A stretch of DNA of 64,000 bases from the NCBI RefSeq assembly GCF_900113245.1, contig NZ_FOOQ01000005.1, positions 62,001 through 126,000 of the forward strand. Direction: 5' to 3'. Positions 1 through 13,497 of this stretch are shown piece after piece (the stretch's first letter is position 1; each line of letters starts with the position of its first letter). A program made the position numbers and the translations under genes. The notes under the pieces were generated by a model. It did no database searches and was not told the origin of the DNA. It saw only the letters and a program-made list of their open reading frames with translations. The stretch comes from Halopelagius inordinatus (GTDB taxonomy: Archaea > Halobacteriota > Halobacteria > Halobacteriales > Haloferacaceae).

Positions 1-899
1 AAGATGGCCGCCGCCATCGATATCACTATCATCGCCATCCCGAGCGTGTAGGCCCGCGAGAACTGGAGGTTCACGTAGGCCGTCTCGTACGTGAGGATGC
101 TCATGAGCATCGTCCGAGTACCGGGTCCACCGCCGGTCAACTCGAACGGCTGCGCGAACTCGGCGACGTTCCACGCCGTCCGAAGCGCGAGGATGACTAT
201 CGTCGGCGTCACGAGGTGCGGCAGGGTCACGTCACGGAACCGCCGAAGCCGTCCCGCCCCGGCCAACGCCGCCGCCTCGTACTGTTCGCGCGGGATGCCG
301 ACGATGGCCGCGGCGTAGATGATTCCGGCGTACCCGTAGTCGTGCCACGACTGCGCGACGATGAGCGACACGTACGGCCACAGGTCCTCCGCGAGGAACG
401 CCGGTGTCGCCACCCCGAAGACGTCCGTGATGAGTCTCGGAAGCATCCCGAAGTCGCTGTTGAGGAACCACAGCCAGATGACACCCCCCGCCAGCGGTGC
501 GGAGAAGTACGGGGACATGACGACTGCGCTGGCCCACTCTCTCCATCCGCTCGTGAGTTCGCTCAACAGGAGCGCCGCGAACAGGCCGATGATCAACTGC
601 AGGAACGTCGTCCCGAACACGAACACCAGCGTCCACCCGAACGCGAAGTGAAACAGGTCGTTCGTCAACAGCCACATGTAGTTGTCGAGGCCCACGAACG
701 TCCCGACTCCCCCCAAGCGCGTGTTGGTGAACGTCATGTAGACGCCCCGCACGATGGGGAAGTAAAACAGGAGCGTGAACATCAGGAACGTGGGGAGAAT
801 GAACAGGTAGCCTATCCAGTTCTCCCGCGCGCGGTCCATCAGCGTGGTCTCCTCCATTCCGTACTTCTCTCTGACGTGCTGTGTGGTTTCTTGTGCCAA
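1..899 (-). CDS. Sugar ABC transporter permease, MalF type (CUT1), partial
   Basis: Inner-membrane permease of a carbohydrate ABC importer; the C-terminus runs off the left edge. Read on the minus strand it gives several hydrophobic segments and the permease coupling motif EAAALAGAG, followed by a typical proline-rich helix (LPHLVTPT). I chose the TTG at 897-899 because the upstream element gtggtaaaaacg at 923-934 has the same spacing to it as the identical element has to the ATG of the ATPase gene at 11253. An ATG at 855-857 is an alternative start. It follows the binding-protein gene 1035-2606 in the same direction, so the two probably belong to one transporter. The substrate cannot be told from sequence. 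Confidence 0.9.
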   Translation of the reverse strand, partial: MAQETTQHVREKYGMEETTLMDRARENWIGYLFILPTFLMFTLLFYFPIVRGVYMTFTNTRLGGVGTFVGLDNYMWLLTNDLFHFAFGWTLVFVFGTTFLQLIIGLFAALLLSELTSGWREWASAVVMSPYFSAPLAGGVIWLWFLNSDFGMLPRLITDVFGVATPAFLAEDLWPYVSLIVAQSWHDYGYAGIIYAAAIVGIPREQYEAAALAGAGRLRRFRDVTLPHLVTPTIVILALRTAWNVAEFAQPFELTGGGPGTRTMLMSILTYETAYVNLQFSRAYTLGMAMIVISMAAAI

Positions 900-922
900 G
901 GTAGTAATCCGATGCCCGCCTA

Positions 923-934
923 GTGGTAAAAACG
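923..934 (-). promoter_or_regulatory. TATA-like element before the permease
   Basis: On the minus strand this reads CGTTTTTACCAC, about 24 nt before the TTG start. The same 12-mer occurs at 11274-11285, and close relatives at 15535-15546 and 24015-24026. It fits an archaeal BRE/TATA element for a leaderless transcript. The permease may therefore have its own promoter as well as readthrough from the binding-protein gene. Confidence 0.5.
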
Positions 935-1011
935 TTGGGGAGAGAATTCGGCCGGTTTGGCGGGTTACAGGCCGTTAGCAGTAGCTATCGCGGTCGAGGT
1001 GAAGCGGTCGA

Positions 1012-1034: not shown

Positions 1035-2606
1035 TTACTGCCCCAGTCGTTCGAGGATTCGCTCGCGGACGAGCGACGGCGTCTCATCGACGGAGTGTTG
1101 CCCCGCGATGGCCTCGCTTATCGTCTCGTTGATGTCGGTCCACCGGATGGGGTCGACGTCCGGCACGTCCCACGCCGCGCCCGTGGTGGAGTACTGGACG
1201 CCGTACTCGTCGGCGTTCTTGTACGCTTGCTCCGTGCTCTGGGCGAGGTCGTACTCGTCGAGGACCTCCTGCAGTTTGGGTTCGAGACCCGGAAGCGCCT
1301 CGTAGTACTCGCCCCACGCGGGCAGGACGAACTCGTTGTCGCTGAGCAGGAACATGTTGAGGTCCCACGCGGCGTTCTGTTCGGCGTCGCTGGCCTCGAA
1401 GATGCACTGCTGCTGTTCGAGCGCCCACATGTGCCCGCCGTGTTCGCCCTCGACGCCTTCGAGTTCGCTGATTCCGAAGTTGCTGCCGAACTCGGAGTCG
1501 ACCTTCGGATGCGGCAGGAGCATGAAGTCGCCCTCGCCGTCGTTCCAGCCGAACTGCACGTCCTCTTTGACGGACGTCCACCGACTGGCGGTCGGAACCG
1601 CGTAGTTGAACGAGGCGACGCGGCCGGTGAGCATGAGCGATGGGATGTCCTCGTCGCCGCGTTGGGCCGCCTCTTCGCTGCTGAACTCGTTGGCCATCTT
1701 CACGCAGGTCTTTATCATCCCGTCCGTCTTGCCTTGGTCCTCGTGGTCGTCATTCCCGACGACGACCGTCTTGTCGTCGCCCTCGCCGCGCATCCACGGG
1801 TCGGTTCCCTCGGTGTACGCGGTCCGCGCGTAGCCCCAGTAGGACTCTAAGTCGCCGGGGACGCCCGTCTCCTCGTAGGCGATGATGTCCTGCTCTTCGT
1901 CGATTCGCTGGACGGCCTCGAGGAACCCGCTCCACGTCGAGAGGTCCTCCATCGGGTCACTGACGCCGGCTTGGCTGAACGATTTCGGACGGATGCCGAG
2001 GTTGCTGTTCGTGTGACGCATCCCGCCGCCCGACCAGTACTCGCCGCGGTACTGCGCGGACTCCTTGTTCGCCTGCGTGAAGTCGTCCGGCAGGTTGTCG
2101 GTCGATTCGATGAACGGCGCGTGGTCCGGAACGCTGTCGTTGAGGTAAAACTGGAGGCCGCCCCCGCCCGCCTCGGCGAACGTCGGCGGGTTACCCGACG
2201 ACACCGTCGAGGAGAGCTTCGACCGGATGTCCCCGTAGGACGCGGTCTGAAGGCTCACGGAGACGTTCCCGTTCTTCTCTTCGAACACCTTCATCGAATC
2301 CTGGAAGTGCGACTTCATCCCGGCGTTCTCGACCGCCTGTGCGCTCAGGTAGTCGATGCTGACGCTCTCGGACCCGCCCGAATCCGAATCGGTGTCGCCT
2401 CCCGAATCGGTCGAACCGCCGCCCCCTTCGTTCGGTTCCGGCGTGCCGTCGCCCTGTTCGCCGCTACACCCCGCGAGGGCTCCGAGCGCACCGACTGTCG
2501 CCGTGGCAGCAGTCGCCTGTACGAACTGCCGTCGCGACGGTTTGTCACTCGGCGGCCCCTCGGTGTGCTCTGTACTCTCCCTGTCACTCGTGTTACTCTG
2601 TGACAT
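1035..2606 (-). CDS. Sugar ABC transporter substrate-binding lipoprotein (CUT1)
   Basis: Extracellular solute-binding protein of a CUT1 sugar importer, 523 aa. The N-terminus has a twin-arginine leader (RRQFVQA, residues 25-31), a hydrophobic stretch and a lipobox LAGC with Cys47, then an acidic Ser/Gly/Asp linker typical of haloarchaeal lipoproteins. The rest is a long extracellular-binding-protein-1-type fold. The start at 2606 was chosen over a longer upstream ORF because a TATA element (catttattat, minus strand) lies 25-34 nt away. The permease gene follows downstream after a stem-loop. Export by Tat and membrane anchoring by lipid are inferred from the signal. Confidence 0.93.
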   Translation of the reverse strand: MSQSNTSDRESTEHTEGPPSDKPSRRQFVQATAATATVGALGALAGCSGEQGDGTPEPNEGGGGSTDSGGDTDSDSGGSESVSIDYLSAQAVENAGMKSHFQDSMKVFEEKNGNVSVSLQTASYGDIRSKLSSTVSSGNPPTFAEAGGGGLQFYLNDSVPDHAPFIESTDNLPDDFTQANKESAQYRGEYWSGGGMRHTNSNLGIRPKSFSQAGVSDPMEDLSTWSGFLEAVQRIDEEQDIIAYEETGVPGDLESYWGYARTAYTEGTDPWMRGEGDDKTVVVGNDDHEDQGKTDGMIKTCVKMANEFSSEEAAQRGDEDIPSLMLTGRVASFNYAVPTASRWTSVKEDVQFGWNDGEGDFMLLPHPKVDSEFGSNFGISELEGVEGEHGGHMWALEQQQCIFEASDAEQNAAWDLNMFLLSDNEFVLPAWGEYYEALPGLEPKLQEVLDEYDLAQSTEQAYKNADEYGVQYSTTGAAWDVPDVDPIRWTDINETISEAIAGQHSVDETPSLVRERILERLGQ

Positions 2607-2630
2607 GTGATATTCGAATGATAGACGGTG

Positions 2631-2640
2631 ATAATAAATG
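2631..2640 (-). promoter_or_regulatory. TATA box of the CUT1 binding-protein gene
   Basis: Minus-strand catttattat lies 25-34 nt before the ATG at 2606, the expected distance for a leaderless haloarchaeal transcript. Confidence 0.6.
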
Positions 2641-2714
2641 TTTCTCACACGAGAACCGATTTCGCGGGTTCTATCCGCCGACTTCGGACGAATTCGGCTG
2701 TTCCGTCCCTCACA

Positions 2715-2722
2715 CTTATGAA
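2715..2722 (+). promoter_or_regulatory. TATA-like element of the chaperonin-like gene
   Basis: The sequence cttatgaa lies 23-30 nt before ATG 2745. It contains an in-frame upstream ATG (2718) that a simple ORF caller could choose. The spacing argues that 2718 is promoter sequence and 2745 the real start. Confidence 0.45.
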
Positions 2723-2744
2723 CGGTGAAGCGAACACGGGGAGT

Positions 2745-4301
2745 ATGAACTCCGACGCACGGCACGCGTTACTCGACGACGTGGACCGCGTCTGCGACCT
2801 CGTCGGCACGACGCTCGGTCCGTTCGGGACGAACAAACTCGTCGTGGAGTCGGGCGGGCGAGTGACGGCGACGTCCTCCGGGGCGATGCTCCTCGACCGC
2901 CTCGAACTGGAGGACCCGGCGACGACCCTCCTCGAACGGGCGGCTGACGACTTTCGCGAGACGCACGGCGACGGCGCGACGACGCTCACGCTTCTGACGG
3001 GCGCGTTGCTCCGCGAGGCGGACGGCTTGATCGACCGGGGCCTCCACCCGACGACGGTCGCGCGCGGGTACCGAGAGGCGCTCTCCGTCGCCGCCGACCG
3101 ACTCGAATCGCGCGCGCGCCCGCTCTCGGTCGTCGGCCCGGACGCCGTCGCGCGGACGGCGCTCACCGGGACGCGAAACCCGACGACGAGACGGCGCGTG
3201 AGCGAGGCGATAGCGGACGCCGCGACGACGGTATCGAACGCCGACGCTCCGAACGGCGGGCGCGCGGACCTGAACGTGCTCGCGCGCCTCGGCGGCGTCG
3301 GGGACACCGACCTCGTCTCCGGCGTCGTCTTGGAGACGCCCCTCGTCTCGGACGCGATGCCCCGACGCCTCCCCGATTCGGGCGTCGCCCTCCTCTCTTC
3401 GACCGTCGACGTCCCCAAACTCGGCGGTGCCACGGAGTCCGCGGACCGAAAGCTGTCTTTGGACGCGGACACGTTCGATGAACGCGCCGCGATCGGCGAG
3501 TACGAACGCGACGAGTTCCGCCAGATACTCTCGTCGGCCGTCGCGTCCGGTTGCCGATTCGTCGCGACGAAAGGCGGCGTCAACGACCGCGTGAAGACGC
3601 GACTGGCCGACGCGGGAGTCGCCGCGATAGACCGCGTCGAAGACGGGGCGATGGAGCGTCTCGTCCGGAACACCGGGGGTCGAGTGGTTCCCTCTCTCGC
3701 CGAGGTGTCCCCGGAGACGATGGGCTCTGCGGACGTGCGCGTCGAACGCCTCGCCGGGCGCGAGTTCGTCTACGTCGAGGGCGACGACGCGCCGCAGTTT
3801 TCTTTGCTCTGTCGCGCGCCGGACCCGCGGTCGGTCGCCGCCTTCGAAGAGAGCGCGGAGAGCGCCGTCGCGGCCACGTTCCGAGCGCTCGACGACGAAC
3901 GCGTCGTTCCGGGCGGCGGCGCGACCGAAATCGACCTCGAACGCGCGGTTCGGGAGGCGGCCAGAGGAATTCCCGGCCGCGAGCAACTCGCGATGGAGGG
4001 GTTCGCGAGAGCGTTGGCGGCGGTTCCGAAGCGACTCGCGGAAAGCGCGGGTCTGGACGGGTGGTCCGGCGTCATCCGTCTCCGCGTCGCGCACGACGAG
4101 GGCCGGTCCGCCGTCGGCGTCGACGCGCTAGCGGGCGAGATTCGGGACGTTCTCGACGGCGACGCCGTCGCGGAACCTCTCGGACTCAAGCGCGACGTGG
4201 TGGCCTCGGCGACGGACCTCGCGACGCAGTTGCTCCGCATCGACGACCGAGTCCCGGCGAACGACCTCTCCGACGACGATTCGGCCGCCGCGGCCAGATA
4301 A
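2745..4301 (+). CDS. Divergent group II chaperonin (thermosome/TCP-1-like) protein A
   Basis: A 518-aa relative of the thermosome subunit, an ATP-driven cytosolic protein-folding ring. Recognisable landmarks in order: TLGPFGTNK (residues 23-31), GDGAT (75-79), PGGGATEIDL (about 389-398) and the C-terminal ATDLATQLLRIDD. Two nucleotide-site positions are altered by my alignment: the NDG of canonical subunits reads SSG (44-46), and the aspartate of the ERSxxDA helix aligns to Ser373. It also lacks a Gly/Met-rich tail. It probably folds as a chaperonin subunit but may hydrolyse ATP poorly. It is convergent with a second divergent paralog at 4346-6031. An ordinary housekeeping thermosome is unlikely. 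Confidence 0.85.
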   Translation: MNSDARHALLDDVDRVCDLVGTTLGPFGTNKLVVESGGRVTATSSGAMLLDRLELEDPATTLLERAADDFRETHGDGATTLTLLTGALLREADGLIDRGLHPTTVARGYREALSVAADRLESRARPLSVVGPDAVARTALTGTRNPTTRRRVSEAIADAATTVSNADAPNGGRADLNVLARLGGVGDTDLVSGVVLETPLVSDAMPRRLPDSGVALLSSTVDVPKLGGATESADRKLSLDADTFDERAAIGEYERDEFRQILSSAVASGCRFVATKGGVNDRVKTRLADAGVAAIDRVEDGAMERLVRNTGGRVVPSLAEVSPETMGSADVRVERLAGREFVYVEGDDAPQFSLLCRAPDPRSVAAFEESAESAVAATFRALDDERVVPGGGATEIDLERAVREAARGIPGREQLAMEGFARALAAVPKRLAESAGLDGWSGVIRLRVAHDEGRSAVGVDALAGEIRDVLDGDAVAEPLGLKRDVVASATDLATQLLRIDDRVPANDLSDDDSAAAAR

Positions 4302-4345
4302 AAACCGCGTCTCCTCTCCGCTTCTCGAATCTCCGCCGTCCCGAC

Positions 4346-6031
4346 TCAATCGTGTTCGGTCTGCGGCGTGAACGGACCGGGTTCGACGCCCGGGGAGACG
4401 ACGGCGTCGACGGTTGTCAGTTGTTCGGCCGTCGCGACGGCGGTGTCGACGGCCTGCGAGAACACGCGCCGCGGTTCGACGACGCCCATCTCCCACGCGT
4501 CCGCCGCCGCGCCGGTTTCGACGTCCACGCCGACGGGCGCGGGCCGTTCGTCGGACTCGGCGTGCGCGCTTCGTAGCGCCGCCCGGACGTCGAGAGGGTC
4601 GTAGCCCGCGTTTCGAGCGAGCGTCGTCGTCAGCGACTCGCAGGCGTCCGCGAACGCTTCGACGGCCAACTGCTCTTTGCCCTCCACGCCGCGAGCGAAC
4701 TCCCGAAGGTCGCGGGCGACTGCGAGAGAGGGTGCGCCGGCCCCCGGGAGCACTTGCCCGTCCATCGCGGCGATGGCCGTCGTTTCGACCGCGTCTTCGA
4801 CCAGTCGTTCGTGCGTCGTCCGCCCCTTCTCGGTCGGCGCGCCGACCAGAAGCGTGAACACCGGGCCGTCGCACTCCTCGAAGCGCGCCCACTTCTCGTC
4901 GCCGACGCGCCGTTCGGACACCCGTCCGGCCCGCCCCAGTTTCGACTCGTCGAGGTCGGAGACGTGACCGACGACGCTCGCACCCGTCGCGCGGGCGACG
5001 CGATGGACGTCCGATTTCGGGTACTGCGCTCTGTCGACGACGGCGACGCCGTGCGATTTGAGCGCGGCTTTCACCTCGTCGTCGAGTTCCGCCCGGACGA
5101 CCAGCACGTCCGTTCCCACCTCGGCCACCGACGCGGCGACGGAGTCGACGGCGGCGTCGCGGGAGTCGGCGTACGCCGCGACTGACCCCGCCGAGTCCAG
5201 CGTCACGCCCGATTTCCCCTCCCCGCCGAAACTCGTCGCTGACTCCTCGACGTCGATGCCGCGTTCGAGGACTGCGACTCTGGCGTCCGTGAGGACGCCC
5301 TCGATGGCGGGCGACCAGTCGAACGAGAGACGACTCCGGTCGCTCGTCTCGTGTGCGCCGGGGCGGCGACGGACGACGTGCCCGCGCGAGAGGGTGCACT
5401 CGGCGTCGACGCGCGTTCGGACGGTGATGTCGTCCGTGTCGAACCAGCCGTCGTCGCTCTCGCGGGCGAGACTCGAGACGGCCGCAGAGACGGCGTCGGC
5501 GTACTCTCGGCGGCGTCGCTCCGAGAGGTCCGCCGTCATCGTCGTCGCGGCAACCTGCGAGAGCAGTTCTCGGTCCGTCGCCTCGACCGGACGCGCCAGG
5601 TCGTCCAAGACGGCCCCCGCCCGGTTGGCCGCCATCGCGTACCCGACGACGATACTGCCGGGATGGAGACCGTCGGCCGCCAACTCCGCCCCGGAGTCGA
5701 GGAGTCTCGCCGCCAGGAGGGCCGCCGCCGTCGTCCCGTCGTGCAGACTCCGCCGCACGGAGTCGAGTCCGTCGACGAACAGGGCAGCGACGGGGTGACC
5801 GAACCCGCCGCCGCGTTCGATGGCTTCGAGCAGGTGCCCGGCGTCTCTCGTCACGACCGTCTCCGGCACGTCTTGCGGGTCTACCGTCTCGACGAGCGTC
5901 GTCCCGCCCGACGGACCGTACGTCGAAGCGACGAGCGATTCGACCGCACGGGCCGCCTCGACGACGTACTCCCGCGCCGCCTCGTCGCGGGTGAGCCACG
6001 ACCCCGCCTCGCTCTCGCCGTCGTGTGTCAT
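4346..6031 (-). CDS. Divergent group II chaperonin (thermosome/TCP-1-like) protein B
   Basis: A 561-aa chaperonin-like protein with low similarity to canonical thermosome subunits. Landmarks: STYGPSG (36-42), TRDAG (61-65, aligned to TNDGA), HDGTT (97-101, aligned to GDGTT), HERLVEDAV (aligned to ERSLHDAL, keeping the Asp at about 413), VLPGAGAPSL (427-436) and GKEQLAVEAF. By eye it keeps all three acidic residues of the ATP site that paralog A partly lost. A central apical-like domain is present, but the C-terminal LRIDD motif is not. ATG 6031 is supported by a TATA element 25-31 nt upstream. The two genes end 44 nt apart, tail to tail. They may form a mixed ring, but that is inference. Confidence 0.83.
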   Translation of the reverse strand: MTHDGESEAGSWLTRDEAAREYVVEAARAVESLVASTYGPSGGTTLVETVDPQDVPETVVTRDAGHLLEAIERGGGFGHPVAALFVDGLDSVRRSLHDGTTAAALLAARLLDSGAELAADGLHPGSIVVGYAMAANRAGAVLDDLARPVEATDRELLSQVAATTMTADLSERRRREYADAVSAAVSSLARESDDGWFDTDDITVRTRVDAECTLSRGHVVRRRPGAHETSDRSRLSFDWSPAIEGVLTDARVAVLERGIDVEESATSFGGEGKSGVTLDSAGSVAAYADSRDAAVDSVAASVAEVGTDVLVVRAELDDEVKAALKSHGVAVVDRAQYPKSDVHRVARATGASVVGHVSDLDESKLGRAGRVSERRVGDEKWARFEECDGPVFTLLVGAPTEKGRTTHERLVEDAVETTAIAAMDGQVLPGAGAPSLAVARDLREFARGVEGKEQLAVEAFADACESLTTTLARNAGYDPLDVRAALRSAHAESDERPAPVGVDVETGAAADAWEMGVVEPRRVFSQAVDTAVATAEQLTTVDAVVSPGVEPGPFTPQTEHD

Positions 6032-6731: not shown

Positions 6732-7907
6732 ATGGCACCGACGATCACGCGGATAGAGAGCACGGAGTTCCGATACCCATTGGAGGACGTCGGGACGGAC
6801 GGACACGGATTCAACCTCTCCTACGAACCGGGAACGACGACGGAGCGGAAACTGTTCGCGCTGAAGATACACACGGACGAGGGCATCACCGGCGAGTACA
6901 TCGGCGGGAACTCTCCGGGCGCGGCGCAGATAAACACGTTCGCGGACTACCTCGTCGGGAAGAACCCCCTCGAACGGGAACGACACTGGAGCGAAGTCAA
7001 GCGGGCCCTCCGGAAGTACGACCGGATGGGAATCGGCCCCATCGACATCGCCCTGTGGGACTTCGCCGGGAAGTACTACGACGCCCCCATCCACGAACTC
7101 CTCGGGACGTACCGCACGCGACTTCCCGCGTACGCGTCCACCTACCACGCCGACGACAACGGCGGGCTAGACTCGCCGGAGGCGTACGCCGACTTCGCCG
7201 AAGAGTGTCGAGACGCGGGTTATCCCGGCTTCAAGATTCACGGCTGGGGAGGCAGCGACGAGGCCCGAGACGTGAGCCGAGAGGTGAAGACAGTTCGGGC
7301 CGTCGGCGAACGCGTCGGCGACGAGATGGACCTGATGGTAGACCCCGCCTGCGAACTTGAGACGTTCGCGGACGCACTCAAGGTCGGCCGCGCATGCGAC
7401 GAGTACGACTACCTCTGGTACGAGGACCCGTACCGAGACGGCGGCATCTCCCAGCACGGCCACAAGAAACTCCGCGAGATGATAGAGACGCCCCTCCTGC
7501 AGACCGAACACGTCCGCGGACTCGAACCGCACACGGACTTCATCGCGAACGGCGCGACGGACTTCGTCCGCGCGGACCCCGAGTACGACGGCGGAATCAC
7601 CGGCGCGATGAAGATTTCCCGCGTCGCCGAAGGGTTCGGCCTCGACGTGGAGTACCATGCGCCCGGCCCCGCACAACGCCACTGCATCGCGGCGACGCGC
7701 AACGCGAACTACTACGAACTCGCCTTGGTCCACCCGGAGGCACAGAACACGCAACCGCCGGTGTACGACGGTGACTATTCGGACATGTTCGACACCATCG
7801 ACGACGACGGAACGGTGCCGGTTCCCGACGGCCCCGGACTCGGCGTCGACTACGACTGGGAGTACGTCGAGGAAAACAGCACGGGTAGCGTCCACGTCTA
7901 CGAGTAA
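6732..7907 (+). CDS. Mandelate racemase/muconate lactonizing family sugar-acid dehydratase
   Basis: An enolase-superfamily enzyme (391 aa), expected to dehydrate an aldonic acid in the cytosol using one divalent metal. The capping domain occupies roughly 1-130. The barrel shows KIH (Lys168, His170) where many relatives have KxK, and metal-ligand candidates Asp204 (VDPAC), Glu231 (YEDPY) and Glu259 (TEH), plus His309 (EYHAPGP). Haloferax xylonate dehydratase belongs to this superfamily, so xylonate or a similar aldonate is a reasonable guess, but specificity is not readable here. Its stop overlaps the start of the Gfo/Idh gene (TAATG), showing tight translational coupling. Confidence 0.85.
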   Translation: MAPTITRIESTEFRYPLEDVGTDGHGFNLSYEPGTTTERKLFALKIHTDEGITGEYIGGNSPGAAQINTFADYLVGKNPLERERHWSEVKRALRKYDRMGIGPIDIALWDFAGKYYDAPIHELLGTYRTRLPAYASTYHADDNGGLDSPEAYADFAEECRDAGYPGFKIHGWGGSDEARDVSREVKTVRAVGERVGDEMDLMVDPACELETFADALKVGRACDEYDYLWYEDPYRDGGISQHGHKKLREMIETPLLQTEHVRGLEPHTDFIANGATDFVRADPEYDGGITGAMKISRVAEGFGLDVEYHAPGPAQRHCIAATRNANYYELALVHPEAQNTQPPVYDGDYSDMFDTIDDDGTVPVPDGPGLGVDYDWEYVEENSTGSVHVYE

Positions 7908-10455: not shown

Positions 10456-11253
10456 TCACGCGTCGGCGGCCCGTTCGTTCCGTTCCTCCTCCGGCATCCC
10501 GCCGACCATTCGTTTGACGATGTCGTCCTGGTCGGCGTCATCGCCGTCTATGACGCCGGCGCTGTGGCCCTGATGGAGGACGTGTATTCGGTCTGCAGCC
10601 CGCCGGACGTAGTCGAGGTTGTGCGAGATGAGGATGATGGAGATACCCTGACTCTGCATCCGCGCGATGAGTTCGAGGACCCGTTCGGCCCCCTCCACGG
10701 AGAGCGCGCTCGTCGGTTCGTCCATGATGACTATCTCGGGGTCCGAGAGGAGCGTCCGCGAGATACTGACGAGTTGCCGTTCGCCGCCCGAGAGGTTCTC
10801 CACCTTCTCGTCGATGTCGACGTCTATCTCCAAATCGTCGAGGAGTTCGCGGGCGCGTTTCCGCATCGACTTCTTGTCGAGGATTCCGAGCAGACTGTTC
10901 GGACCGGTGACCATCTCGCGGCCCAGAAAGATGTTCTGCGTGACGGTGAGGTTCCCCGCGACGGCGAGGTCCTGAAACGTCGTCTCGATGCCGAGGTCCT
11001 TCGCCCGACGGGGAGTGTCGATACTGACGACGTCGCCGTCGATCCGAATCGTCCCCGAATCGGGTTGGAGCGCTCCGGCGAGGCATTTTATGAGCGTCGA
11101 TTTGCCGGCCCCGTTGTCGCCCGCCAACGCGAGTACCTCGTTTCGGCGAAGTCGAAGCGTCACGTCCTCCAGTGCGACCACTTCGCCGAACGTCTTGGTG
11201 ATTCCCTCCATCTCGACGACGTACTCGCCGTCGCGTCCACTGACGTTCGCCAT
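10456..11253 (-). CDS. CUT2 sugar ABC transporter ATP-binding protein, single-domain
   Basis: The cytosolic ATPase of a ribose/fructose-type importer, 265 aa. It has one nucleotide-binding domain: Walker A GDNGAGKST, signature LSGGERQ, Walker B IVIMDEPTSAL and the H-loop ISHN, all intact. The single domain matches FrcA-like ATPases; RbsA/MglA proteins have two. It is transcribed away from the permease and binding-protein genes at 11389-13497, which lack any other ATPase, so the three likely form one system. ATG 11253 lies 21 nt from a TATA-like element. Confidence 0.92.
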   Translation of the reverse strand: MANVSGRDGEYVVEMEGITKTFGEVVALEDVTLRLRRNEVLALAGDNGAGKSTLIKCLAGALQPDSGTIRIDGDVVSIDTPRRAKDLGIETTFQDLAVAGNLTVTQNIFLGREMVTGPNSLLGILDKKSMRKRARELLDDLEIDVDIDEKVENLSGGERQLVSISRTLLSDPEIVIMDEPTSALSVEGAERVLELIARMQSQGISIILISHNLDYVRRAADRIHVLHQGHSAGVIDGDDADQDDIVKRMVGGMPEEERNERAADA

Positions 11254-11388: not shown

Positions 11389-12369
11389 ATGTCTCAATCG
11401 GTCGCCTCCGGGTACCGAAACCGCTTCACGGTCAGCGCCATCAGCCAGTACGGGCCGATAATCGGACTCGTCGGGTTGTACGTGGCGTTCTCTCTTCTGA
11501 ACGACCGGTTCCTCACGGTGGGAAACCAGATGAACGTGCTCCAGCAGGTGTCGATAATCGGTATCATGGCCATCGGGGTCACTTTCCCCATCCTCTGTGC
11601 CGAAATCGACCTGAGCATCGCGCAGGTGATGGAAGTCGCGGGGCTGACCGTCGCCACACTCGCCGTCGGCGCGCGCCTCTTCGAGGGGTCCGCCGTTCCG
11701 GTCCCGATTGCGATTCTCGCGGGGCTGTCCGTCGGTGCCGCCTTCGGCGCGGTTTCGGGGTACGTCACCGCCCGGTTCGGCGTCCCCTCGTTCATGACGA
11801 CGCTCGCGGTGTTGTTCCTCGCGGACGGACTCGGACTCATCGTCTCCGGTAACCGCCCCATCATCGGACTGCCGGAGTCGATAACGAACATCGGGGGGTC
11901 GCGACTGTTCGGACTGCCCAGCATCGTCCTCGTGTTCTTCTCCTTGCTCGTCGTCTCGCAGTTGATGCTCTCGTACACCAAGTTCGGCCAGTACATCTAC
12001 GCTATCGGCGGTGACCGCCAGTCGGCCGAGCGGATGGGTATCAACGTCGCGGCCGTCCGTCTCGGCACCCTCGTCATCTCGGGAACGTTCGCCGCCGTCG
12101 CCGGACTGGTGACCCTCGGCCGTCTCGGGAGCGCCGTCCCGACGATGGGTGCGGGCCTGTTGCTTCCGCCCATCGCGGCGGTCATCCTCGGGGGGGCCGA
12201 CCTCTTCGGCGGGTCTGGAAACATGGTCGGAACGCTCATCGGCGTTCTCATCCTCGGCGTCCTCCAGAACGGACTCAATCTCATGGGCGTCGGCCCCTCG
12301 GGCCAACTCGTCGCACAGGGTATCGTCCTGATGTTGGCCGTTCTCGCGAACGTCTCCGGGGAGAACTGA
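11389..12369 (+). CDS. CUT2 sugar ABC transporter permease (RbsC/FrcC type)
   Basis: A polytopic membrane protein of 326 aa with about 8-10 hydrophobic segments. It carries family features such as EIDLSIAQVM in the first half, KFGQYIYAIGGDRQSAERMGI, and the glycine-rich AVILGGADLFGGSGNMVGTLIG near the end. It would form the sugar channel with the divergently encoded ATPase and the downstream lipoprotein. The order permease then binding protein is common in haloarchaea. Confidence 0.93.
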   Translation: MSQSVASGYRNRFTVSAISQYGPIIGLVGLYVAFSLLNDRFLTVGNQMNVLQQVSIIGIMAIGVTFPILCAEIDLSIAQVMEVAGLTVATLAVGARLFEGSAVPVPIAILAGLSVGAAFGAVSGYVTARFGVPSFMTTLAVLFLADGLGLIVSGNRPIIGLPESITNIGGSRLFGLPSIVLVFFSLLVVSQLMLSYTKFGQYIYAIGGDRQSAERMGINVAAVRLGTLVISGTFAAVAGLVTLGRLGSAVPTMGAGLLLPPIAAVILGGADLFGGSGNMVGTLIGVLILGVLQNGLNLMGVGPSGQLVAQGIVLMLAVLANVSGEN

Positions 12370-12441: not shown

Positions 12442-13497
12442 ATGTCACAGAACGTTCGAAGACGGAGGTTCATCCGCACTGGCGTCATCGCCGGGACGGC
12501 TATGCTCGCTGGCTGTAGCGGCGACGGAGGCGATGGTGACTCCGAGACGACGGCGGGCGGCGGGTCCGACGGTACCGAGACGACAGACGAAACCGACGGT
12601 ACCGAGACGACGGGCGGGGAGTCGACGCCCACCGTCGCGCTCTCGGTTCCGTCGCTCGAATTCACGTTCTTCGCGCGCATGGAGAACGCCTTCGAACAGG
12701 CGCAAAGCGACGGCCTGATATCGTCCGAGTCGTCGTTCTACGACGCGAGCAACAACCAGTCGAATCAGGTGTCCGCCGTCGAGACGGCTATCTCGAACGA
12801 GGTGGACTTCCTCATGATATCCGCCATCACAGCGGAAGGCGTCATCAACGCCATTCAACAGGCCAACGACGCCGACATCCCCGTCGTCGCCATCGACCGC
12901 AACATCTCCCAAGGCGAGACGGTGACCTACGTCGCCTCGGACAACGTCCAACTCGGACAGCGTTCGACGGAACTCTGCCTCTCGTTCATGGAAGCGAACG
13001 GCGACGGAGACAGTTACGACGTGGTCCAACTGGAGGGAACGCCCGGAGCGAGCGTCACGAACGACAGGGGAGAGGGGTTCCAAAACGCCGTCAGCGAGAA
13101 CGACAGCCTCAACCAACTCGCCACGCAGACCGGCGAGTTCTCGACGCAGAACGCCCTCAGCGTGATGGAGGACTTCATCACGCAGTACGGCGACGAGATA
13201 GACGGCGTGTTCTGTCAGAACGACCTGATGGCCCTCGGCGCGCACCAGGCACTCCGGAACGCGAACATGTCGGTTCCGGTCACCGGCATCGACGGCACCG
13301 AGGCGTGGGTCGAACAGTTCTCGGACAACGAGTACTACGGAACGCTCGCTCAACTCCCCGAGGAGATGGTCACGACGGCGATAGAGAGCGGGAAGGCCCA
13401 CCTCGCGGGCGAGGACGTAGAGGACACCATCACCATCGAGGGTCTGGAGGTCACGCAGGACAACGCTTCGGACTACCTCAGCGACTACTTCGGGTGA
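12442..13497 (+). CDS. CUT2 sugar-binding lipoprotein (RbsB type)
   Basis: A 351-aa extracellular sugar-binding protein. The leader has RRRRFIR and a lipobox LAGC (Cys25), followed by a Thr/Glu/Gly linker to about residue 60. The mature part has the periplasmic-binding-protein fold with AIDRNIS, SVTNDRGEGF and GVFCQNDLMALGA, which form ligand and hinge segments in RbsB-like proteins. It lies 72 nt after the permease gene. The ligand cannot be named. Confidence 0.93.
   Translation: MSQNVRRRRFIRTGVIAGTAMLAGCSGDGGDGDSETTAGGGSDGTETTDETDGTETTGGESTPTVALSVPSLEFTFFARMENAFEQAQSDGLISSESSFYDASNNQSNQVSAVETAISNEVDFLMISAITAEGVINAIQQANDADIPVVAIDRNISQGETVTYVASDNVQLGQRSTELCLSFMEANGDGDSYDVVQLEGTPGASVTNDRGEGFQNAVSENDSLNQLATQTGEFSTQNALSVMEDFITQYGDEIDGVFCQNDLMALGAHQALRNANMSVPVTGIDGTEAWVEQFSDNEYYGTLAQLPEEMVTTAIESGKAHLAGEDVEDTITIEGLEVTQDNASDYLSDYFG

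Follow-up and report, generated by a model that had tools for sequence, protein, structure and literature searches.

Within a 64,000-nt stretch of the genome of the haloarchaeon Halopelagius inordinatus (contig NZ_FOOQ01000005.1, positions 62,001 to 126,000; hereafter, the window), two adjacent genes, A and B, encode divergent group II chaperonins. These proteins form an old, conserved, and co-inherited pair with unequal ATP sites that is separate from the housekeeping chaperonins, and the pair is coupled to one ATP-binding cassette (ABC) transporter and its solute-binding protein (SBP). The pair probably serves as a private folding machine and not as a housekeeping chaperonin. More tentatively, with a likelihood that we place a little below even, they are proposed to constitute a dedicated group II chaperonin for this one transporter of a sugar-acid catabolic cluster, probably as a mixed ring and with the SBP as the likeliest client.

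Gene A occupies positions 2745 to 4301 of the forward strand and encodes a protein of 518 residues, and gene B occupies positions 4346 to 6031 of the reverse strand and encodes a protein of 561 residues. Both are complete open frames for full-length proteins; for A, an alternative in-frame ATG is found nine codons upstream of position 2745. The stop codons of the two convergent genes are separated by 44 nt (4302 to 4345), and rereading of the open frames reproduced the coordinates and the spacing given in a first-pass annotation of the window. Both proteins match the Pfam family Cpn60_TCP1 over their whole length (A, 339.7 bits, E value of 4e-101; B, 315.6 bits, E value of 8e-94; cut-off of 34.3 bits), and the best solved relatives of each are group II chaperonins. 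At the same time, the cut-off of every NCBIfam thermosome model lies above the scores of A and B: for the thermosome alpha/beta equivalogs, the best scores are 320.7 for A (cut-off of 450) and 300 for B (cut-off of 400), and for TIGR02339, 315 and 313 are reached, respectively, of the 671 needed. The earlier assignment of both proteins to group II, as members distinct from thermosome subunits, is thereby upheld. No domain other than Cpn60_TCP1 was found in the Pfam scan of A and B, which revealed neither a DNA-binding or other extra domain nor a TorD-type domain. The host genome encodes six chaperonins: A, B, and four more that score 456–625 bits, compared with 340 and 316 bits for the pair. 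The fourth of the non-pair chaperonins (L004, G000:C1:1165171-1166646) groups with a Halostagnicola gene in a separate clade, and its nucleotide-sensing Lys is replaced by Arg.

When 468 distinct genomes, drawn from the whole family (170 genomes) and from 392 of the order, were searched with profiles, two sharply separated classes emerged. A was detected in 28 genomes (608–928 bits, with other chaperonins at or below 355) and B in the same 28 (661–1024 bits, with others at or below 327 apart from the B-only genomes G031 and G165). The survey as a whole covered one order and one plasmid collection, and the co-occurrence counts are phylogenetically non-independent, though they span 17 genera and evident horizontal transfer. 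The 28 genomes belong to four families and include those of Halogeometricum pallidum, Haloferax sulfurifontis, Hfx. denitrificans, Salinigranum salinum, Halegenticoccus soli, Haloplanus ruber, Halobium salinum, and Haladaptatus; the pair is absent from the majority of species in the larger of these genera. None of the 468 genomes contains A alone. A B-like gene alone is found in two genomes that are 70% and 82% complete, where one copy is interrupted by an N gap and the second copy runs across two frames. The question of whether the two genes always co-occur, raised in the first-pass annotation, can thus be answered in the affirmative, with only these two fragmentary cases as exceptions. The tail-to-tail arrangement is observed in 26 of the 28 genomes, with a gap between match ends of 13–167 nt (median of 65.5). 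In the remaining two, both genes are likewise kept: B lies 31 kb from A in G272, and in G261 the two genes are on the same strand with the SBP gene between them.

The constant partner of the pair is this SBP (SBP_bac_8, positions 1035 to 2606, reverse strand), a protein of 523 residues with a twin-arginine translocation (Tat) motif at Arg25 and Arg26 and a lipobox Cys at position 47. An alignment of seven orthologues shows no variation in either the Tat motif or this Cys. A search of 167 genomes of the family and 392 of the order located the SBP family in exactly the 28 genomes that contain A and B (470–926 bits, compared with a best score elsewhere below 90), and no genome searched has this SBP family without the pair; G258 has a second copy, at 546 bits. 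Genes of the transporter are found within ~9 kb of A in 24–26 of the 28 genomes. Furthermore, A, B, and the SBP are retained together even when their genes are separated or rearranged, as in G272 and G261, in G113, where the SBP gene lies 25 kb from A, and in G258, where it is on another contig. The exceptions to the ~9-kb count are mostly accounted for by the distance in G113 and a contig end in G258. A partly independent check is provided by PLSDB: among its 72,556 plasmids, orthologues of all three proteins occur in the same six, which are haloarchaeal megaplasmids, and three of these six are from outside the 28 genomes; more distant thermosome-like matches to A and B were also returned. 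In Halomarina and Haladaptatus, the public annotation of A and B is 'TCP-1/cpn60 chaperonin family protein'.

The SBP and A genes are divergent, and the 138-bp region between them (2607 to 2744) is a probable shared control region with an inferred promoter role. The first permease gene of the operon (1 to 974, reverse strand) is cut by the window edge and is followed, outside the window, by genes for a second permease, a MalK/UgpC-type ATPase, and a tartrate-dehydrogenase-like protein. The transporter therefore comprises the CUT1-type set of an SBP, two MalFG-type permeases, and a MalK/UgpC-type ATPase, and these parts are independently annotated on the Halomarina and Haladaptatus plasmids.

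The three proteins also share an evolutionary history. In a co-evolution test of 26 genomes, from which G136 (whose cct1 entry was in the wrong frame) and G130 (which is without a full SBP) were left out, the A and B distances correlate with r = 0.965, and this value remains 0.94 after removal of the host signal, as represented by cct1. After the same correction, the SBP correlates with A at 0.65 and with B at 0.72, and none of 2000 permutations gave values as high. The distances of host cct1 correlate with those of A and B at 0.63 and 0.65, respectively. In addition, a comparison of positions 1035 to 6031 of the window with G087 and G001 revealed that A, B, and the SBP are 90.5, 92.1, and 91.6% identical to their counterparts in H. 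pallidum and 84.2, 88.3, and 83.1% identical to those of the congener, whereas this order is reversed for cct1 (92.5% for H. pallidum and 97.9% for the congener). Because the three genes are closer to H. pallidum against the order given by cct1, they moved together, and the unit of A, B, and the SBP is one that has been horizontally transferred. Phylogenetic analysis places all A sequences in one clade and all B sequences in another (support of 100/100 each), on long stems (1.13 and 1.03 changes per site, respectively). The phylogeny proposed as a check thus resolved each protein as a single lineage and left the relationship between the two unsettled, as a common split of A and B from all canonical chaperonins has support of 93/89 and may reflect long-branch attraction. 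Origin of A and B from one recent duplication was not confirmed, given the long stems and this level of support.

The ATP sites of the two proteins are unequal. In A, the Asp residues of the NDG and ERSxxDA motifs are replaced by Ser45 and Ser373, respectively, and the GDG Asp is present as Asp76, whereas the window copy of B has all three acids (Asp63, Asp98, and Asp413). The alignments are gapless at these motifs, and no acid is hidden nearby in A; a check for the acids elsewhere in A likewise found none. These results agree with the by-eye motif reading of the first-pass annotation. Among 28 A sequences, the NDG position is Ser in 25 and Ala in three and is never Asp, the GDG Asp is kept in all, and 27 have another residue in place of the catalytic Asp (14 Ser, eight Ala, two Arg, two Thr, and one Gly), which the remaining sequence keeps. 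Among 30 B sequences, 27 of the 28 full-length copies retain the NDG Asp, and the catalytic position is Asp in 26 rows, Asn in three, and Ser in one partial copy. The combination of one inactive-like and one active-like site is therefore conserved across orthologues rather than a chance property of the window copies. The P-loop Lys of A is also invariant. The nucleotide-sensing Lys of group II chaperonins (MTGK) is Thr in all 28 A sequences and is directly followed by Arg144, which is invariant in six aligned A proteins; in B, this position is mostly Asp, as in the window copy, and otherwise Asn, Ala, or a gap. Relative to ACII, there is no deletion of the nucleotide-sensing loop in either protein. 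With canonical-type subunits encoded elsewhere in the genome, and with a pair that is confined to 28 of 468 genomes, strictly co-occurring, and conserved in its unequal sites, the earlier suggestion that this is not an ordinary housekeeping thermosome holds.

According to crystallographic work on a related chaperonin, water is activated by the aspartates of NDG and ERSxxDA, the GDG Asp binds Mg2+, and the basic residue of the nucleotide-sensing loop contacts the γ-phosphate (PMC5635000). Based on these residue roles and the motif states of the pair, A should be unable to hydrolyze ATP and may bind nucleotide, and B may hydrolyze ATP, perhaps slowly.

Further differences are found at the termini. 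Only 20–23 residues precede the LGP motif in the 24 A copies in which the motif was found, compared with ~44 in host cct1, which corresponds to ~20 missing N-terminal residues. The N-terminal segment of thermosomes contributes to subunit contacts, and A thus appears to be without a segment involved in these contacts. The C-terminal tail of B (4349 to 4384, reverse strand) is conserved: nearly all B proteins end in P-x-x-E-[HR]-[DENA]-end, which replaces the Gly-Met-rich tail of host cct1 and cct2. The apical regions of both A and B align over their length with ACII, and the built-in lid segment is present (for A, as judged by sequence). A predicted structure of B has a predicted local distance difference test (pLDDT) score of 71, and its best matches in the PDB are Mm-Cpn, with which it superimposes over 529 columns with a template modeling score of 0.74, and thermosomes. 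An AlphaFold model of A, prepared from a 6-row alignment, had a pLDDT of 36 and was discarded.

In the proposed mechanism, A and B would assemble into a mixed ring whose cycle would be driven by ATP hydrolysis in B. As A keeps the Mg2+-binding Asp and is without both water-activating residues, it would bind nucleotide at most and serve as a structural or regulatory subunit. The client would most likely be the cognate SBP, a ~50-kDa twin-arginine lipoprotein, and the chamber may fold this protein and/or hold it from the translocon until it is export-ready. Proteins leave the cell by the Tat pathway in the folded state, and this pathway is the principal one for export in haloarchaea (PMC2910488). 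The SBP must therefore be folded in the cytoplasm before export, a step for which a private chamber could provide either folding or holding. We infer the co-assembly of A and B, the role of B as sole ATPase, and the identity of the client from the genes and their sequences.

Several observations weigh against this mechanism. Coupling to the transporter is not enough to identify the SBP as the client, which could instead be a permease, the ATPase, or an enzyme. Haloarchaea export many Tat-dependent SBPs without a private chaperonin, and the window itself encodes a second apparent Tat lipoprotein SBP (12445 to 13494) that has no chaperonin beside it and adjoins genes for a sugar ABC ATPase (10456 to 11253, reverse strand) and a permease (11389 to 12369, forward strand). 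The A, B, and SBP genes are divergent or convergent and do not form one operon. At the ATP sites, the A protein of G261 keeps the catalytic Asp as the single exception among the 28, and three B orthologues have Asn in place of this residue. Finally, a group III chaperonin shows a severe drop in ATPase activity when the equivalent basic residue is changed to Glu or Leu (PMC5635000), and B, in which the nucleotide-sensing Lys is absent, may thus be a weak ATPase.

The catabolic neighborhood of the pair is variable. Each of the catabolic enzymes tested is found near A and B in only 3–16 of the 28 genomes; these include enolase-superfamily dehydratases, KdgD-like and GarR-like proteins, UxaA, PdxA2 with a DUF1537-type kinase, and aldolases. 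In the window, an enolase-superfamily sugar-acid dehydratase gene (6732 to 7907, forward strand) lies beside B, outside the conserved core. The catabolic enzymes were rejected as the constant partner in view of these counts, as compared with 24–26 of 28 for the transporter genes. The link to a catabolic region drawn in the first-pass annotation is thus supported, with the correction that a single ABC transporter, together with its SBP, is what remains constant, a far more specific link. Next to the tartrate-dehydrogenase-like gene, about half of the loci encode a conserved protein of ~360 residues (L203:1087-2175 and relatives, cluster c16), which has no Pfam or NCBIfam match.

Additional divergent chaperonins in the genomes that bear A and B adjoin ABC operons with Tat-type lipoprotein SBPs. 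One of these, the clade C chaperonin, and a different SBP are found in the same four of 79 genomes, both at more than 1000 bits compared with 97 for the next-best SBP; G062 first came to light as one of the four genomes through this test. It is conceivable, although we would put the likelihood just short of one half, that haloarchaea possess private chaperonins as a class, in which every member is inherited along with a single Tat-exported SBP and the corresponding ABC transporter. A/B and clade C would be two members of this class, each matched to a different SBP, and clade D adjoins an ABC operon of a third type. On this view, group II chaperonins would have been recruited more than once as folding or proofreading devices that act on a specific substrate of Tat export.

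The most serious rival to a dedicated chaperonin is that the pair rides a mobile sugar-acid catabolic island and helps to fold its enzymes, or anything else encoded there, with no particular link to the SBP, such that co-occurrence reflects co-transfer. The island is mobile, as shown by the reversed order of the A/B/SBP and cct1 identities, is carried on a megaplasmid in several hosts, and has enzymes flanking A and B everywhere. However, these enzymes vary while A, B, and the SBP are constant, the three genes are retained after their separation in G272, G113, and G258, and clade C shows the same one-to-one pairing with an SBP of its own. With these points considered, the co-transfer explanation is judged unlikely, though it deserves more weight than those that follow. 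Haloarchaeal thermosomes are mixed rings, and A and/or B, which keep the overall group II fold and lid region, may instead be alternative subunits that enter housekeeping CCT rings and shift their clients under certain carbon sources. Such a role is improbable, as the correlation of A with B far exceeds that of either with host cct1, and transfer of the pair has occurred between hosts with cct1 divergence of up to ~25%.

It is slightly more improbable still that A and B are sensors or regulators of the cluster that have lost their folding function. The loss of the ATPase residues and N-terminal segment from A, and of the sensing Lys from both proteins, is compatible with this role, and a similar decay of ATP sites is seen in BBS-type chaperonin-like proteins (PMC2846930). 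B, however, keeps its acids, full length, and chaperonin fold, and no DNA-binding or other domain has been added. Lastly, the long branches in the tree could be read as ordinary thermosome duplicates drifting towards loss. This reading is refuted in the main and retains a very slight probability, as the frames are open, the pattern of losses is conserved in 28 genomes, the GDG Asp and P-loop Lys of A are invariant, and co-occurrence is strict.

The loci of the other divergent chaperonins show features of their own. In clade C (L282, L284, L285, L286, L290, and L291), the acids are intact, and the gene converges on an ABC operon that encodes a Tat-type lipoprotein SBP of its own, with GH3/GH42-like glycosidases nearby. 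In clade D (L283:8044-9699 and L296:8549-10198), the NDG Asp is replaced by Gln or Ser and the catalytic Asp by Gln, losses that resemble those of A; these genes lie near SBP, permease, permease, and ATPase genes and near aldehyde dehydrogenase, glyoxalase-type, or oxidoreductase genes. The catalytic Asp is replaced by Ala in two further divergent chaperonins. The first (L295:8247-10265) is directly followed, in the same direction, by an ABC-transporter ATPase gene, and the second (L288:8585-10351), which also has GDT for GDG, is clustered with hydantoinase/dihydropyrimidinase-like and biotin-carboxylase-like genes. G272 also carries two other divergent chaperonin genes in tandem (L293:8877-12333, contig C3), with a repeat of identical scores at G272:C3:324339-327609.

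No description of such a chaperonin–transporter arrangement was found in the open-access literature. If the dedicated role proposed for A and B is correct, they would represent a natural chaperonin system that takes up little of the genome and whose client is known, in contrast to the view of chaperonins as general folding machines. Such a system could be used to study how a cage recognizes its substrate and what a non-hydrolyzing subunit contributes to a ring, and it would bear on how haloarchaea, which secrete mostly through Tat in the folded state, prepare difficult clients.

Relative to the archaeal thermosome and haloarchaeal CCT1–3 (Mm-Cpn, T. acidophilum), A and B share the whole-length domain, ~30–37% identity, the lid region, and, for the B model, the match to Mm-Cpn. 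In contrast to these proteins, A is without two catalytic Asp residues and the N-terminal segment, neither A nor B has the nucleotide-sensing Lys, and the patchy, mobile pair is tied in the genome to one transporter. The eukaryotic CCT/TRiC is a hetero-oligomer of subunits that differ in sequence and ATP use, and A and B would form a similar assembly of unequal subunits; however, CCT/TRiC has eight essential subunits and broad clients, whereas A and B would be two accessory subunits with a presumed single client. The group III chaperonins (Ch-CPN, PMC5635000) are also divergent and have a built-in lid, but are without the six-residue nucleotide-sensing loop, the length of which A and B keep while changing its Lys. 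Vertebrate BBS6, BBS10, BBS12, and CCT8L are likewise fast-evolving group II paralogues with decayed ATP-hydrolysis motifs (PMC2846930). The BBS proteins are linked to cilia, whereas here a decayed and an intact paralogue stay paired and are tied to an ABC transporter. A functional, hypothetical likeness is to the redox enzyme maturation proteins (REMPs) TorD and DmsD, which are private chaperones of Tat substrates and for which holding before export has been proposed in the case of redox enzymes (PMC3316669). The fold of A and B is unrelated, REMPs act on cofactor-loaded redox enzymes, and the role of A and B is a proposed one, but the logic would be the same: one dedicated chaperone beside one Tat-exported protein.

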